A DNA stretch of 6,649 nucleotides. It comes from a bacterium (lineage in GTDB: Bacteria; CSSED10-310; JAJRTK01). Below, piece by piece: positions 663-6,649 of the stretch. Below the pieces are notes generated by a model that saw only the letters and a list, made by a program, of their open reading frames with translations, was not told the origin of the DNA and did no database searches. The stretch lies in NCBI GenBank assembly GCA_024278345.1, contig JAJRTK010000356.1:1-6649 (forward strand), read 5' to 3'. The number at the start of each line of letters is the position of its first letter. Positions within the stretch are counted from its first letter, which is position 1. The position numbers were made by a program, and so were the translations under genes.

Positions 663-3600
663 CTATCGGGTGGTATTTGGATGGATAAGAAGAGGTTCAA
701 AGGGCGGGAAAAGCTCGATCCCAGCCGCCTCTACTCTTTTTCGGAAAGCCGTGACCCTCTCATCGAACAGGCGGTTGAAGTCCGTTAAGACCTTGCGGAG
801 GCTCTTCTCGGCTTCCTTGAGATAGCCGAGCTGCTCTGGTGACGGCTCTTCCCACGACGAACCGATGAACCAACCGGCAACACCGACCTTGGACAACAGA
901 TCGTCATCGGGAACGATGTCTCGAACATCCGGCGGCTGCCACAAGCGTTCTTCCATCTTCCGGAGAGATTTCTCAAGCTCCTTGGCCTGGTGGAGCAGCT
1001 CCCCATACCTCGGCTTCTCCCCGGGTTCCAAACGGCCATTTTTTCGCTCTACCTTCTTTTTGACAAGCCCTATATCGGCCCGGATTTCATCGATCCGCTC
1101 CAGTGCCTCCGCCACCACCTCCATCAGGTGGCCCACGCGGAGCATCGCCTCCCAGCGAGCCTGGCGGCCAGCCTTGGAAACTGGAGAGCGGGGATCCGGC
1201 AAGATCTTCAACGGCTGGCTCGCCTGGTGCTCCCGCCAGCGAACGACGAGCCGGTAGTCTCCCGGAGGCAGCTCCGGACCCACCGGCTTGTCGGCCCACC
1301 ACTGCGCGGTTTTTGGAGTGCGAAACGGGTCGCGGCGGAGGCCCCAGACGATGCGATTCAAACCGCGATGGACAGTAGGCTCGAAATGGCGAACTCGCCG
1401 TCCTTCGGTGTCGAAGATTTCGATTTCCGCCACGGGCGGCACGGCATCCGGTTTTTCGGGATCCTCTTCTTCGATTGAAGATGATCCAGCTTCTGGCGAT
1501 TCCGCCGGTGGAGGGGCCTTCGCCATGGCCGCCGCTCCGGAAGCCGCGCCTTCCGGATTGAGCGGGATCGCCAAAGGAGGCCCGGCCAGCGCCGCCACCC
1601 GGAGCGGTTTCGATGGGACTTCTCCATCTAGGCGCGGCCTGAAGTCCGCGATCAAGAGGAACTTTCCGGGATCGTCGCCTCTGCTCGAAGCCGCGTAGGC
1701 TCCAGAGTCAGGGCCATCCAGTCCCACCGGATCTCTTTCCGTCGCCGGGGGCACGCGGGCCGGCTCCCCACCCTTCCCCTTGTCGGGCATGGGAAGGCTC
1801 TCGTCGCCCAGCCAGAAGGTCACGAGCGCCCCGTAAGGCCGGTTTTCGCCACGGAACTCTCCATCACCTGGAAAGCGGGAGCCGCCAGTCTGCTTCACGC
1901 GGTACTGTTGCACATCGCCAATGGCGAAAAGGTAGAGCGGACTGGCCACGACCTCCGGCGTCAATTGCCGCAGCGGACGGATGTCGTCCAGCACGAAAGC
2001 GGAGCGGCCATGGGTTGCGATGACCAAATCACTCTCCCTGGGGTGGATCGCAAGGTCCATCACCGAGGTTGTGGGCAGGCCGTGGCGCCACGCCATCCAG
2101 CTCTTTCCCCGATCCATGGACCAAAAGAGCCCGAACTCCGTTCCCAGGAACAAGAGATCCCGGTTGACAGGGTCTTCGGCCACCACCAAGGCGTAGCCCC
2201 GAACCGGGTCTGAGGCCAGGCTCGTCCAGGTCTGCCCGTAGTCCTCTGTCCGGTAGAGGTAGGGAGTCCAGTTTCCGCGTCGGTGATCGTCGAAAACCGC
2301 GTAGGCCACGGCGGGATCGAAGTGGGAGGGCTCAATGTGTGGAACCCAGGTATTCTCCGGAACGTCGGGCAGATTCTCCTCGACACTGATCCAGGTTTCT
2401 CCCCCATCCCGGGTGACGTGAATCCGGCCATCATCGGAACCGGTCCAGACGACGCCTTTTCTGATGGGACTGGGAGCGATGGCCACGAGGGTCGTGAAAT
2501 TCTCAGCTCCGCTGACATCGGGAGTCAGCCCGCCGCTATCCCGCTGCTTCTGCCAGTCGGGGTTGTCGGTGGTGAGATCTGGACTCACGATCTCCCACGT
2601 CCGCCCCCGATCCCTGGACCGGTGAAGAAACTGGCTGCCTAAGTAAATGGTGGCGGGCTCGAAGGGATCCTGGGCAAAGGCGGCGTTCCAGTTGAAGCGG
2701 AGCTCGCCTTCCGTAAGCGGGGCGGGCCGAATACTCTTCCGTTCGCCCGTTTCCAGGTTCCAGCGCATCAGGAAGCCTCTCTGGCTCATGGAATAGCCCC
2801 GGAGCGGATTCTGGGGATCGGACCGGGTCTCGAATCCATCGCCGAAGCCCACCTCTTCCCAGAACTGGTTCCGGATGCCGCCATTCTCCCAAACCGCCGC
2901 GGGACCGCGCCAGGAGCCATTGTCCTGCATGCCGCCAAGAATGTGGTAAGGCCGCTCCATATCGACGGCCACGTGATAAAACTGCGCCAGTGGCAAATTT
3001 GCCGCGAACTGCCACGTGCGCCCCCGATCATGGCTCAGAGCGATCCCTCCATCGTTGCCGTCGATAAGAGATCTCCCATCCCGTGGATCGATCCAGAGCG
3101 CGTGGTGATCGGGGTGGATTTTGCTGTAGGGAATCAGCACCTCGAAGCTCTTCCCGCCGTCATTGGAGACGCTTGCCAGGGACCAGAGATTGTAGATCCG
3201 GTTGGGACGCTCCGGATCGACGCGAATGTCGGCATAATAGAAAGGCCTGGGCGCAATCCCCGGCTCGTCGTTGACGGTTTTCCAGCTCCAACCGCCATCC
3301 CGTGACCGAAGGAGAGCGCTCTTCTCCGCCTCCACCAAAGCATAGACGATCCGGGGATCCGACGGCGCAATGGCGACGCCAATCCGGCCCAAATCCCCCT
3401 TGGGCATCCCCTCTTTCTCCGTCAAGCGCCGCCAATTCTCACCGCCATCGACGCTAACATAAAGGCCCGACCCTGGACCGCCAGAGCGGAAGAACCAAGG
3501 CCAACGCCGGTGGTCCCACATCGCCGCGAACAGCTTTTGAGGGTTCCCGGGATCGATGACCAGATCCGCGCCGCCTGTGGTCTCATTGACATAGAGCACC

Positions 3601-4154
3601 TTTCGCCAGCTCTTGCCCCCGTCAACCGTCTTAAAGATCCCCCGCTCCGGGCTTTCCCCCCAAGTGGGCCCCATGGCGGCGACCCAGGCGACATCGGGAT
3701 TGGAAGGATGGAGGACGACGCGGTGGATCCGCTCGGTCTTCCGAAGACCCAAATGCCGCCAAGTCCGCCCGCCATCCAAAGACCGGTACACGCCATTTCC
3801 CACCGACACGCTATTCCGTGGATTGCCTTCACCCGTCCCCACCCAGACGATATCGGGGCTCGGTTGAAAAATCGAGACATCGCCAATGGAAGCCACAGGC
3901 TGGTCATCGAAGATGGGCGTCCAGCTCACGCCGCCACTGGTGGACTTCCATACGCCTCCGGCAGCCGTGCCCACGTAGAGAACCGCCGGATCGGACAAGA
4001 CCCGGTCAATGGACGAGATGCGACCGCTCATCCCCGCCGGCCCGATTGCCCGAGCCCTAAGCCCGGCCAGTAAAGCAGGATCGACGGGAGCTTCCTCGGC
4101 CTCCACCGAAACAACCGACAGGATCATGGCGAAGAAGAAATAACAGGGACGCAT
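663..4154 (-). CDS. Secreted multi-Asp-box (BNR/sortilin-like) beta-propeller protein, 1163 aa
   Basis: Starts at ATG 4154 with GGAGGA (4163-4158) three to four bases upstream. Residues 1-19 form a signal peptide (hydrophobic FFFAMILSVVSV, then VEA before EE). The segment GLRARAIGPAGMSGRI (31-46) is the usual opening of bacterial BNR/VPS10-like 'glycosyl hydrolase' proteins. Eleven Asp-box motifs of the S/T-x-D-x-G-x-T/S-W type are visible, starting at about residues 71, 125, 176, 234, 284, 330, 374, 513, 581, 636 and 679, so residues 30-725 should fold as one or two propellers. HPDHHALWIDP (347-357), GNDGG (366-370) and GGMQDNGSW (407-415) are further family hallmarks. After the propeller come an unusual Pro/Ala/Gly/acid-rich stretch (about 787-907), an Ig/FlgD-like beta domain (908-975, with GLNRIVWGLR) and a charged helical, possibly coiled-coil tail (1000-1145). 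The family lacks an established substrate; the 'glycosyl hydrolase' label comes from Asp-boxes, which are structural. Likely periplasmic or extracellular binding or scaffold role. Some members run about 1000-1100 residues, so this one is long. Confidence 0.95.
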   Translation of the reverse strand: MRPCYFFFAMILSVVSVEAEEAPVDPALLAGLRARAIGPAGMSGRISSIDRVLSDPAVLYVGTAAGGVWKSTSGGVSWTPIFDDQPVASIGDVSIFQPSPDIVWVGTGEGNPRNSVSVGNGVYRSLDGGRTWRHLGLRKTERIHRVVLHPSNPDVAWVAAMGPTWGESPERGIFKTVDGGKSWRKVLYVNETTGGADLVIDPGNPQKLFAAMWDHRRWPWFFRSGGPGSGLYVSVDGGENWRRLTEKEGMPKGDLGRIGVAIAPSDPRIVYALVEAEKSALLRSRDGGWSWKTVNDEPGIAPRPFYYADIRVDPERPNRIYNLWSLASVSNDGGKSFEVLIPYSKIHPDHHALWIDPRDGRSLIDGNDGGIALSHDRGRTWQFAANLPLAQFYHVAVDMERPYHILGGMQDNGSWRGPAAVWENGGIRNQFWEEVGFGDGFETRSDPQNPLRGYSMSQRGFLMRWNLETGERKSIRPAPLTEGELRFNWNAAFAQDPFEPATIYLGSQFLHRSRDRGRTWEIVSPDLTTDNPDWQKQRDSGGLTPDVSGAENFTTLVAIAPSPIRKGVVWTGSDDGRIHVTRDGGETWISVEENLPDVPENTWVPHIEPSHFDPAVAYAVFDDHRRGNWTPYLYRTEDYGQTWTSLASDPVRGYALVVAEDPVNRDLLFLGTEFGLFWSMDRGKSWMAWRHGLPTTSVMDLAIHPRESDLVIATHGRSAFVLDDIRPLRQLTPEVVASPLYLFAIGDVQQYRVKQTGGSRFPGDGEFRGENRPYGALVTFWLGDESLPMPDKGKGGEPARVPPATERDPVGLDGPDSGAYAASSRGDDPGKFLLIADFRPRLDGEVPSKPLRVAALAGPPLAIPLNPEGAASGAAAMAKAPPPAESPEAGSSSIEEEDPEKPDAVPPVAEIEIFDTEGRRVRHFEPTVHRGLNRIVWGLRRDPFRTPKTAQWWADKPVGPELPPGDYRLVVRWREHQASQPLKILPDPRSPVSKAGRQARWEAMLRVGHLMEVVAEALERIDEIRADIGLVKKKVERKNGRLEPGEKPRYGELLHQAKELEKSLRKMEERLWQPPDVRDIVPDDDLLSKVGVAGWFIGSSWEEPSPEQLGYLKEAEKSLRKVLTDFNRLFDERVTAFRKRVEAAGIELFPPFEPLLIHPNTTR

Positions 4155-4163: not shown

Positions 4164-4254
4164 AAGAAAAAGGCTCGATCAGGGCACCGAATTGCTCGTA
4201 AAGGCTCTCGGTCGTCTCACTTCATGGGGTTGGCTCCTGGTTCCCGGTTCGCGG

Positions 4255-4316
4255 AAAGGGCGACTGGCGGGTGGCGGCCGCCACCTGACGGGAGCGGACA
4301 CAACAAAAAGAAAGAG
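4255..4316 (+). repeat. Dispersed palindromic repeat, copy 1
   Basis: Left arm GGCGACTG (4259-4266); centre of 22 bases; right arm CGGGAGCGGAC (4289-4299), then CACAAC and an A-rich tail (4305-4313). The centre includes the 16-bp perfect palindrome GGTGGCGGCCGCCACC (4270-4285), which contains the octamer GCGGCCGC. The left arm differs by one base from the copies at 6356 and 6163, and the right arm by one substitution and one missing A. On the minus strand it lies in the leader of the propeller gene, 3' of the terminator-like hairpin. Confidence 0.62.
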
Positions 4317-4330
4317 GGCATTGTCCACTC

Positions 4331-4357
4331 TTGCCCCGGAGGCGCAACAGGGGGCAA
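4331..4357 (-). terminator. Terminator-like stem-loop after the phosphodiesterase gene
   Basis: On the minus strand TTGCCCC (4357-4351) pairs perfectly with GGGGCAA (4337-4331) around a 13-nt loop, starting 8 nt after the TAG stop. No U-run follows immediately; a pyrimidine-rich tract with five consecutive T (about 4317-4305) comes roughly 15-25 nt later. It could be an imperfect intrinsic terminator or a 3'-end stabilising hairpin. Confidence 0.42.
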
Positions 4358-4365
4358 AACTTATC

Positions 4366-6102
4366 CTACTCTACATAGCCCAGTGCTCGCATCCGCTCGG
4401 TCTCTTCATCCATGATCTCGGTGGCATCCAACTCTTCCTTCTCCAAAACATCGAACGGCCTTTCATACGAAGGAACGAACCGGACAGGGTGCTCCACAAG
4501 ATAGTCCGGCTCCATCGCTTCGGTAAGAACATGACCGTCCATGTCCGCGCCCATGGGAAGATCCAGAAGATAGAGCAGAGTAGGCGTGAGGTCCACCAGA
4601 TTGCTCGACGGCAAGATCCTCCGCGCAATGGGTCCGCCGCTCAGAATGATGAACCCGTTATCGGCATGGTTTCCGTGGCGCTTGGCCGGAACCTGGCCGT
4701 GATCGGTGACGATGATGGTCACGGTCTTCTCGTCAGACTGCTCAAGCAGCCGACCCAACTGTTCATCGGTGAAGCGGTAGGCATTTTCCACCAGCCTAGA
4801 CAAGGCATCAACATCGCATCCATCCGACTCGCACTCGGCCAACGCCTCCTTGTTGCTGGAAAAATGAAGGAACATGTGGCCCGTAGCATCGATGGCCCGC
4901 AGGTAGACGGTGAAGAGGTCCAGATTCGGGTGGCGCGTGCGTAGATCCAGAGCGAGCTTCATGAAATAGCGGTCTTCCCAGTAGAACTCGCGGAGCATCC
5001 GCGCCTGGCTGTCGGAGACGCAGTCGCACCGGGAAAGATCAAGAAAGCGCTCGGAAATCTCGCCATCCAGAGAGTCCATGGGCATATAGAGCTTCCGCGC
5101 CATATCCAGCTCACCGGGCGGATAGGCGAGTCCCTGAAACTTGTCGAACCATCCCCGGGCCGACCCCGTGGCTCGCGCTCCGTGAACGCCCAGAAGATAG
5201 GAATAGACAAAGCCGTTGAGAGGCTCGGCGGGCCAGGTCGTCCACCAACCCACCACGCCCACGGGCCGTCCTTCGTCCCCGGCTATCCGCCAAAAAGCGC
5301 GGGCACGCCGGTGGAAGCTCGCGGCGGGAATCCTTTCCTTGGGCCGCTCCCAAAGCCAGCCATCGCCCATTTTCGAACGGTCTTTCATGGGGTGAAAGTC
5401 GTAAAGGGCACCGCCATCACCATCAAAAAGCCGGATCATCGAAAGGTCGAGGCAAAGCGTGCGCCGGCCCATGAGCTGACCGGCGCCGGGGCAATCCAAT
5501 TGGAGCTCGGGCTCCAGCCAACCGCCTGGAGAATCGAGATCCGCCCACCGCACGGCGTCAACAGCACCAAACTCCATCTCCACCAACGGCTGGCCCTTCA
5601 GCCGAACGCGAACGGACTGTCGCTTCACGCGATCGGGAGCGCGACCCCGAAAAGCAAGGCGCAACCGGTCTCCTGGCACCGGCGGCAGACGAAGCGTCGC
5701 CGGCTTTCCCCGAACGGGCGCAAGCCAAAACCGCAGATACCGGGCCGTGGGCATGACAAAATCCTCGATGCCATGCTTGTTGGGCAGTTTTCCCGTCGCC
5801 AGCGTGCTCCAAAGAATCGGACTCCAGTAACCCCGCTGCCCCGAAAGTGATCGGGTCCAAAGAAGCGACGCCAGATGCCCGGCCGCGCCACCGTCGATAA
5901 GCCGCGAGAAATTCGGGAGCTTCCCTTGGGATCGATAGGTCTGGAGGAGGTCCCAACTGCCGCCATCCACGCCCACCAGCAAGATCTTCCACCTCGGCTC
6001 CTTTCCCACAAGAAGCGGCAGGAGAGCAAGCCCAACAACGAAAAGTCCGGCCAGCGGAAGAACAATCCATCGATTGCACCGCGGAAAAAGTCTCCACTTC
6101 AT
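4366..6102 (-). CDS. Membrane-anchored alkaline phosphatase-superfamily (type I phosphodiesterase-like) protein, 578 aa
   Basis: Starting at Met 6102, residues 12-32 form a single hydrophobic segment after a basic MKWRLFPRCNR, giving a signal anchor with the enzyme on the outside. The metal-enzyme fold follows: ILLVGVDGGSWD (metal Asp46), YWSPILWSTLATGKLPNKHG with Ser94 at the nucleophile position, RAIDATGH (Asp405, His409), VTDHG (Asp467, His468) and HGNHADNG (His479). All expected metal ligands are therefore present. NLVDLTPTLLYLLDLP (501-516) and the terminal MRALGYVE are typical of this group. Between the nucleophile and the later ligands lies a long region; about 130-230 looks beta-rich and may be an accessory insertion. 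It probably hydrolyses a phosphate (or sulfate) ester or transfers a phospho-group in the periplasm; the substrate cannot be read from sequence. The frame also has an ATG at 6177, but the extra 25 residues are polar, fall in a dispersed repeat, and would push the anchor inward. The Shine-Dalgarno match upstream of 6102 is weak (GCGAGA). Confidence 0.93.
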   Translation of the reverse strand: MKWRLFPRCNRWIVLPLAGLFVVGLALLPLLVGKEPRWKILLVGVDGGSWDLLQTYRSQGKLPNFSRLIDGGAAGHLASLLWTRSLSGQRGYWSPILWSTLATGKLPNKHGIEDFVMPTARYLRFWLAPVRGKPATLRLPPVPGDRLRLAFRGRAPDRVKRQSVRVRLKGQPLVEMEFGAVDAVRWADLDSPGGWLEPELQLDCPGAGQLMGRRTLCLDLSMIRLFDGDGGALYDFHPMKDRSKMGDGWLWERPKERIPAASFHRRARAFWRIAGDEGRPVGVVGWWTTWPAEPLNGFVYSYLLGVHGARATGSARGWFDKFQGLAYPPGELDMARKLYMPMDSLDGEISERFLDLSRCDCVSDSQARMLREFYWEDRYFMKLALDLRTRHPNLDLFTVYLRAIDATGHMFLHFSSNKEALAECESDGCDVDALSRLVENAYRFTDEQLGRLLEQSDEKTVTIIVTDHGQVPAKRHGNHADNGFIILSGGPIARRILPSSNLVDLTPTLLYLLDLPMGADMDGHVLTEAMEPDYLVEHPVRFVPSYERPFDVLEKEELDATEIMDEETERMRALGYVE

Positions 6103-6103
6103 T

Positions 6104-6163
6104 GGAATCTCGCTTCTAGTTGAGTTCCGCTCGCGCTGGTCGCGGCCGCTCCCATCACTCGCC
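6104..6163 (-). repeat. Dispersed palindromic repeat, copy 3, abutting the phosphodiesterase start codon
   Basis: On the minus strand: left arm GGCGAGTG (6163-6156), a 20-base centre containing GCGGCCGC, then right arm CGCGAGCGGAAC (6135-6124) and CAAC with a purine-rich tail that runs into the bases before ATG 6102. Both arms are identical to the copy at 6356-6418 (20 of 20 arm bases), in opposite orientation. The element forms the immediate 5' leader of the gene. Confidence 0.62.
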
Positions 6164-6180
6164 GGGAACACCGCCATTCT

Positions 6181-6196
6181 TGGCGGGCGCCCGCCA
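6181..6196. promoter_or_regulatory. Perfect 16-bp palindrome (TGGCGGGCGCCCGCCA) upstream of the phosphodiesterase gene
   Basis: TGGCGGGC is followed directly by its reverse complement GCCCGCCA, with no spacer. It sits 79 bp upstream of the preferred start codon and does not extend by further complementary bases. It could be an operator for a dimeric regulator, a transcript hairpin, or part of the neighbouring repeat (copy 1 also has TGGCGGG). No T-tract follows on either strand, which argues against an intrinsic terminator. Confidence 0.45.
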
Positions 6197-6355
6197 GATT
6201 ACCGAGTCCGGCCATCCTTCCGCGAATCTCCCCATTCATCGTTGTTTTCCATGAAATCCGAGTCTGCCACGCTCTCCCAGCCAAAGAGAAATCGGCCCGG
6301 GAATCTATTTTGGGAGGCGCTTGTCTTACGGAAATAGAAGGTGGCCCAGGGCGAA

Positions 6356-6418
6356 GAAAGGCGAGTGGCGGCGGACGGATTGCCGCCGCCGCGAGCGGAA
6401 CACAGCCAAAAGAAAAGA
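6356..6418 (+). repeat. Dispersed palindromic repeat, copy 2
   Basis: Left arm GGCGAGTG (6360-6367), 22-base centre, right arm CGCGAGCGGAAC (6390-6401), then CACAGCC and AAAAGAAAAGA. The centre forms a strong stem with GGCGGCGG (6367-6374) pairing with CCGCCGCC (6383-6390) around an 8-base loop. Its loop differs from the GCGGCCGC centre of the other two copies while self-complementarity is kept. That is the pattern expected if the structure, rather than the exact sequence, is maintained. Confidence 0.62.
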
Positions 6419-6475
6419 ATACGATTCCTGGGATTTATACGCGTTAGACGTTCCAGAACCCGAAGTCCGCCCCGG

Positions 6476-6499: not shown

Positions 6500-6621
6500 A
6501 CGCAGCGGAGTTGCAGCGGCACTTTGGCAAAAAGAAGTGTAGACGACAGGGTATCCACCTAAGCCGGGACACGCAACAAAACCCAAAAAAGACGCGGAGC
6601 GTACAAAAACGTGGGCTGGGC

Positions 6622-6647
6622 TCCCGTTGCCCTTCGTTGCAACGGGA
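6622..6647. repeat. Inverted repeat at the right edge
   Basis: TCCCGTTGC (6622-6630) and GCAACGGGA (6639-6647) form a perfect 9-bp stem with an 8-base loop. On the minus strand a run of five T (6609-6605) follows about 12 nt after the stem, so this may be the terminator of a minus-strand gene lying to the right. The nested CGTTGCAACG palindrome (6636-6645) offers an alternative fold. Its outer context is cut off by the window edge. Confidence 0.4.
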
Positions 6648-6649
6648 AG

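Follow-up and report, generated by a model that had tools for sequence, protein, structure and literature searches.

A probable MITE-like repeat family of about 800 copies in one bacterial genome, with an internal hairpin better conserved than its ends

Three short repeats with palindromic centres lie in the intergenic DNA of a 6,649-nucleotide stretch of a bacterial contig (the window), raising the question of what kind of element they represent and why centres that differ in sequence should remain self-complementary. A sequence-only reading had described them as REP-like or small MITE-like elements, mobilised or maintained as structured DNA or RNA. Examining about 1.74 Mb of the host genome (a MAG of 6.06 Mb in 550 contigs, 87.9% complete), we found that all three are members of one family of ~800 copies, each ~150 bp in length. 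The pattern GGCGASTGN{14,30}GSGAGCGG matched the host genome 172 times, compared with 15 matches for a reversed control pattern, and 0-4 times in each of 97 other genomes, which, like the control, is chance level. The family is therefore genome-specific and far beyond chance expectation.

A profile built from 23 copies and then iterated recognised 235 copies across 1.27 Mb and 326 across 1.74 Mb. Its conserved region of ~166 columns corresponds to the ~150-bp element plus its target repeats. As 30 copies were found in 225 kb (contigs C1-C20, chosen regardless of hits), we extrapolate to about 800 copies per genome (Poisson range roughly 550-1150), or ~2% of the DNA. The elements are thus short, without coding capacity and dispersed at high copy number. 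With genes called by a simple hexamer method, coding regions made up 85% of the sequence, yet 201 of 231 copy centres (87%) did not fall within a predicted gene. A genome-wide search of the kind proposed in the sequence-only reading therefore returned neither these three copies alone nor hits spread through coding sequence.

Within the window, the cores lie where that reading had placed them, at 4259-4297 (+), 6360-6398 (+) and 6163-6127 (-), but the ~60-bp unit it had recognised is too short, as both the profile and a covariance model (CM) extend the unit to ~150 bp (Table 1). The best copy is full length, although its 8-bp target-site duplication (TSD) is no longer recognisable, and the second full-length copy retains a 5' terminal inverted repeat (TIR) reading GGTCGTC near 4216. 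The third copy, first drawn as 6163-6104, is present as a diverged core without recognisable ends (22.6 bits with the CM); a sister copy sharing this centre occurs elsewhere in the genome (C252/L140). The tail of the window copy extends to the probable start codon (ATG 6102, minus strand) of a phosphodiesterase-like gene, which probably begins at this ATG, directly after a core copy, rather than at 6177.

Table 1 Family members and other features in the window and at further loci of the host genome
Feature	Location	Strand	Match
Full-length member, best copy in the window	6308..6467	+	nhmmer 99.5 bits, model 3-164 of 166; CM 121.9 bits at 6304-6471
Core hairpin of this copy: GC, tandem G.A, stem, CGGAT loop	6360..6396	+	
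GGAAC-N-CARC motif, conserved and single-stranded, with A/purine-rich tail (GGAACACAGCCAAAAGAAAAGAA in this copy)	6397..6419	+	
Second full-length, more diverged member	4208..4349	+	nhmmer 50.6 bits; CM 66.7 bits at 4201-4365
Core-only member (GGCGAGTGATGGGAGCGGCCGCGACCAGCGCGAGCGGAACTCAAC), ends decayed or lost	6110..6164	-	nhmmer 21.1 bits; CM 22.6 bits
Sortilin/BNR-repeat protein	663-4154	-	
Type I phosphodiesterase-like protein	4366-6102	-	
Beginning of a second, distinct dispersed repeat (GGGTATCCACSYAAGSCGGGACA...CGTACAAAAACGTGGG...CCCGTTGCCCTTCGTTGCAACGGGAA), running off the window end	6549-6648	+	
Subfamily GGGGAGG...CCCGACC	L107:3008, L143:9770, L122:4418, L085:3236, L082:494		
Subfamily with ~22-nt insert	L118:6153-6344, L154:5117-5308, L151:10469-10657, L108:8781-8972, L120:1425-1616, L082:494-685		
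RAYT transposase gene	L166:1012-1737, contig C390		NF047646

The ends of the elements point to how the family spread. Copies carry imperfect ~24-bp TIRs (GGTSGTG...GGGCA; the 5' end reads GGTGGTGCTCCG.TTTTAGGGCA and the other end, inverted, GGTTGTGGGACTCCT.CAGGGCA), immediately outside of which lie 8-bp direct repeats. When 8-mers of 60 copies were compared across a matrix of offsets, the maximum fell exactly at the TIR ends. At fixed positions in 110 copies, the mean match was 4.07 of 8 letters, compared with 2.59 when partners were shuffled (z = 12.2). Perfect 8/8 duplications, mutually different in sequence, flanked 12 of these 110 copies (for example, CGGTTTCA, AGGATTCC, CGAACTGG and AGATAATC), and 37 were at chance level, a third of copies that could partly reflect lost boundaries. 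The target sites resemble the palindrome SRRWWYYS. Divergence of the flanks from their nearest neighbour was 0.13 in copies with 7-8/8 matching letters and about 0.25 in the rest, indicating that the state of the TSD follows age; copies without recognisable ends lie about 35% from their nearest relatives. An outer CAGGGC/GCCCTG pairing that we had considered as an RNA helix was dropped, being the inner part of the TIRs.

The TIRs and 8-bp TSDs thus indicate spread by transposition as a MITE-like element, and the mobility of the family is well supported. Because TIRs combined with a TSD of fixed length are characteristic of a MITE on which a DDE-type transposon has acted, transposition probably proceeded through a transposase of this type. 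No autonomous element with family TIRs was found among hits to PF00872, PF12762, PF01609 and PF01610, in a MAG that is 88% complete and breaks at repeats, and the host genome sequence yielded no Mutator/IS256 partner. The IS1595 and ISL3 families make 8-bp target duplications like those seen here, and remnants of both are present in the host genome. However, the two partial IS1595 copies have ends reading GGCTCTATATG, which are not family ends, and IS1595 ends in this genome (GGCTCTATATGCGATCCAGGG) do not align with the family TIR; family ends are likewise absent beside the ISL3 remnants. The one DDE_Tnp_1 gene, truncated at a contig end, was also set aside, having no matching ends.

A scan of 1.27 Mb for TIR pairs with a TSD gave no convincing element with a transposase, and only one inverted pair. 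In that pair (L159:10984-12967), two inverted copies surround an M20 peptidase gene, with 6/8 letters matching outside; it is possibly a composite element, or else a chance arrangement. At three further loci (L083:353, L066:4118 and L166:823), the words GGGACCTATCAGATC / GGGATCTATCAGGTC appear repeatedly next to isolated family ends and are perhaps a third repeat.

The REP-like half of the original suggestion can be weighed against the same features. REP elements resemble the family in being short, GC-rich, mismatched palindromes present in hundreds of intergenic copies (PMC3733652), and the Y1 transposase gene that the sequence-only reading had advised looking for does exist, as a RAYT gene on contig C390, the single Y1 gene that the searches recovered. 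A weak family copy (21 bits) overlaps its stop codon, with none recognised on the other side; given about one copy per 3-4 intergenic regions, this overlap can be chance. REPs need a GTAG or CGTC tag (PMC3733652), which is absent from the foot of the family hairpin, where the flanks are GATGAAAG / GGAAC. Furthermore, the family consists of single copies rather than REP/iREP pairs, and its ~150-bp unit has TIRs and 8-bp TSDs, features that Y1 transposases do not generate. The coding sequence of the RAYT gene contains, in frame, two copies of a GTAG-type REP of its own (GTAGGGGCGGGTTCCGAACCCGCCC), and this repeat has only 4 genomic sites. We therefore regard mobilisation of the family by the C390 RAYT as highly improbable, whereas the MITE-like half of the suggestion agrees with the TIRs, the TSDs and the intergenic location.

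We next turn to the centre of the element. The hairpin occupies profile positions 56-92 and consists of a G-C and a C-G pair, a tandem G.A/A.G mismatch of the sheared type, a stem of ~9-10 bp and a CGGAY loop. The tandem mismatch is 98-99% conserved and is rarely replaced by ordinary pairs (GGCTCC...GGAGC); the C, G, G and A of the loop are each conserved at 96-99%, and an additional G at 98%. On the 3' side follow GGAAC-N-CAAC (GGA 98-100%, CAAC 92-96%) and an A-rich tail. An RNAalifold model (R1) kept 7 pairs only, so pair statistics were computed on core-only alignments. Across 67 distinct cores, 90.3% of cells pair, compared with 74.9% after shuffling, and 116 cells show changes in both partners, compared with 45.5 after shuffling, a level reached in none of 500 shuffles; the core sequences are related, so these double changes count copies rather than events. 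The covariation signal collapsed when partners were slid by 1-3 columns. The strongest covarying pairs were 63-86 (GC/AT) and 71-77 (AT/CG/UG), and separate stem changes included GGCGGC/GCCGCC, GACGG/CCGTC, GGGCG/CGCCC and, in the GGGGAGG...CCCGACC subfamily, a stem base in which G-C replaces C-G and the tandem G.A is retained. The earlier observation that the centres differ yet stay self-complementary therefore extends genome-wide as compensatory change, in keeping with its proposal of maintenance as structured DNA or RNA. Cells of G.T type outnumber those of A.C type by 307 to 78, favouring the strand as originally written as the one that folds.

One subfamily has a hairpin insert of ~22 nt (GGGGAACTCGCGCCGCAGGCGCGGGTCGTG) that gives a different, two-part fold. 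Similar inserts also occur as tandem partial cores at L107:5682 and L157:382.

A structured, covarying core, one copy of which (6110-6164) sits just before a start codon, might suggest a cis-regulatory, riboswitch-like leader placed ahead of the genes of a regulon. However, copies occur in both orientations and occupy all intergenic types, at 0.27 per tandem, 0.27 per convergent and 0.30 per divergent gap; relative to tandem genes, 58 have the same and 44 the opposite orientation, which is close to random. Rfam gave no match in the window at E < 1, nor any above noise at four further loci. On the basis of genomic context and Rfam we reject the leader explanation, to which we assign next to no probability. 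The observed placement is what insertion wherever harmless would give, and speaks against a leader RNA or terminator.

The distribution of conservation within the element bears on what the hairpin does. Information per column was 1.23 bits in the hairpin and 1.44 bits in GGAAC.CAAC, compared with 0.65 bits in the TIRs. We used left-flank-only and right-flank-only models (E < 0.01), so that copies were not found via the core, and a core was present in 51 of 51 left-flank and 111 of 116 right-flank hits. Sixteen fixed core positions were ~97% intact however diverged the flanks, including in copies found by their flanks alone. For independent nearest pairs of these copies with flank divergences of 0.022, 0.184 and 0.327, divergence at the 16 fixed sites was 0.037, 0.036 and 0.030, respectively (P = 0.31, 6.5e-8 and 1.6e-19). 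These values suggest constraint on the core despite decay of the TIRs, as would befit a working single-stranded RNA or DNA hairpin.

Such constraint could act solely on the lineage of master copies, with the hairpin needed in cis for transposition (as single-stranded DNA or as RNA bound by the machinery) and the resident copies neutral and simply young. This reading, which we consider a real possibility if somewhat short of an even one, is consistent with the youngest pairs (flank divergence about 2%), which show no core deficit (4/107 versus 14/642), and with the lack of a clear preference for orientation or intergenic class, as expected for inert copies. It is at odds with three observations: copies that retain 5-6/8 TSD letters, and so are clearly old insertions, keep 96-97% of fixed core sites; divergence at these sites stays flat while that of the flanks goes from 2% to 33%; and, across all copies, the TSD correlation is just 0.27, indicating that most copies are not young. 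The simplest reading, which we argue for rather than prove, is that resident copies preserve their core; by the same argument, constraint on a master lineage alone fits the youngest pairs but not the copies with decayed TSDs.

Alternatively, the core may have been exapted as an RNA element beneficial to the host, such as a transcript-end stabiliser, an RNase site or a protein-binding UTR hairpin, with transposition as merely its historical means of spread. Constraint on old copies, the excess of G.T over A.C cells, which suggests a sense RNA strand, and the survival of core-only copies without ends (for example, window 6110-6164) would all fit. Near-random orientation (58:44) and the equal use of gap types do not, and the sense strand has no T-run of an intrinsic terminator; we hold host benefit to be possible but rather unlikely. 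We are similarly tentative about a further reading, in which the TIRs serve for spread only and the hyperconserved hairpin RNA, with its tandem G.A, CGGAY loop and GGAAC-N-CAAC, works in every resident copy. Were this doubtful reading true, the genome of the cell would carry one functional RNA module some 800 times, at dispersed sites.

Taken together, we consider it likely that the repeats form a previously undescribed MITE-like family of ~150-bp non-autonomous DNA transposons with TIRs and an 8-bp TSD, whose hairpin is selected as a folded single strand; it is this role of the hairpin that we infer. Elements would insert at SRRWWYYS-like sites, duplicating 8 bp, with a DDE transposase, which our searches did not find, presumably cutting or copying them in trans. 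Given its covariation, selection would preserve the hairpin in a folded, single-stranded form, most likely as RNA of the strand reading GGCGAGTGG, as the ratio of G.U-type to A.C-type cells suggests. The core is probably needed for the persistence of the element, either for its own propagation or by making insertions tolerable, and would stay intact in resident copies after TIRs and TSDs decay. The usual hallmark of a bacterial MITE is a pair of conserved ends enclosing a dispensable interior, whereas in this family the interior resists change and the ends and TSDs fade. The long-standing question of whether repeats of this kind are functional RNA or junk can be tested directly in this case, as one genome offers hundreds of natural replicates, each with a TSD as its age mark, in a family that accounts for a few percent of the non-coding sequence in a bacterium that lacks closely related sequenced genomes.

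The second dispersed repeat in the window continues with GATGAGCGCGCTCCCTGGTGGGTGCAGGGCGAAGCCCTGC in other copies. It numbers 125 copies in 1.74 Mb, with 16 in the unbiased 225 kb, and includes a GCGGGACAC-CAAC-A-rich stretch similar to the first family's tail.

We found no match to the family in 7 other genomes of the same phylum or in plasmid, phage and IMG/VR collections. A scan of a contig collection gave 27 scattered chance hits, none of which was confirmed by the CM (best 10.4 bits). HEARO / IsrB omega RNA (RF02033) had no match in the host genome, and control genomes also gave none. A search for the core sequences in a library of papers found none.

Among known systems, the family resembles bacterial MITEs such as Correia/NEMIS, ERIC, Chunjie and QMITE, sharing with them a length below 500 bp, TIRs of 4-30 bp, direct repeats that wane with age, an intergenic location, frequent truncation and folding into stem-loops (PMC10969869). 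Its copy number is unusually high and comparable to the highest cited for a MITE, 711 for ERIC in Photorhabdus (PMC10969869). Unlike in these elements, conservation is weaker in the TIRs than in an internal hairpin, which has non-canonical pairs and a fixed loop; the family also differs from the named MITEs in being GC-rich and is unrelated in sequence to Rfam families and to the collections that we searched. bcr1, a repeat of the Bacillus cereus group, differs from the family in sequence and in the length of its target duplication. The bcr1-bcr18 repeats of that group are, like the family, high-copy chromosomal intergenic repeats, with bcr1-3 being MITE-like and bcr10 and bcr18 having conserved RNA structure (PMC3446304). 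Mobility and conserved structure are described there for separate bcr families (PMC3446304), whereas here both are found in one element.
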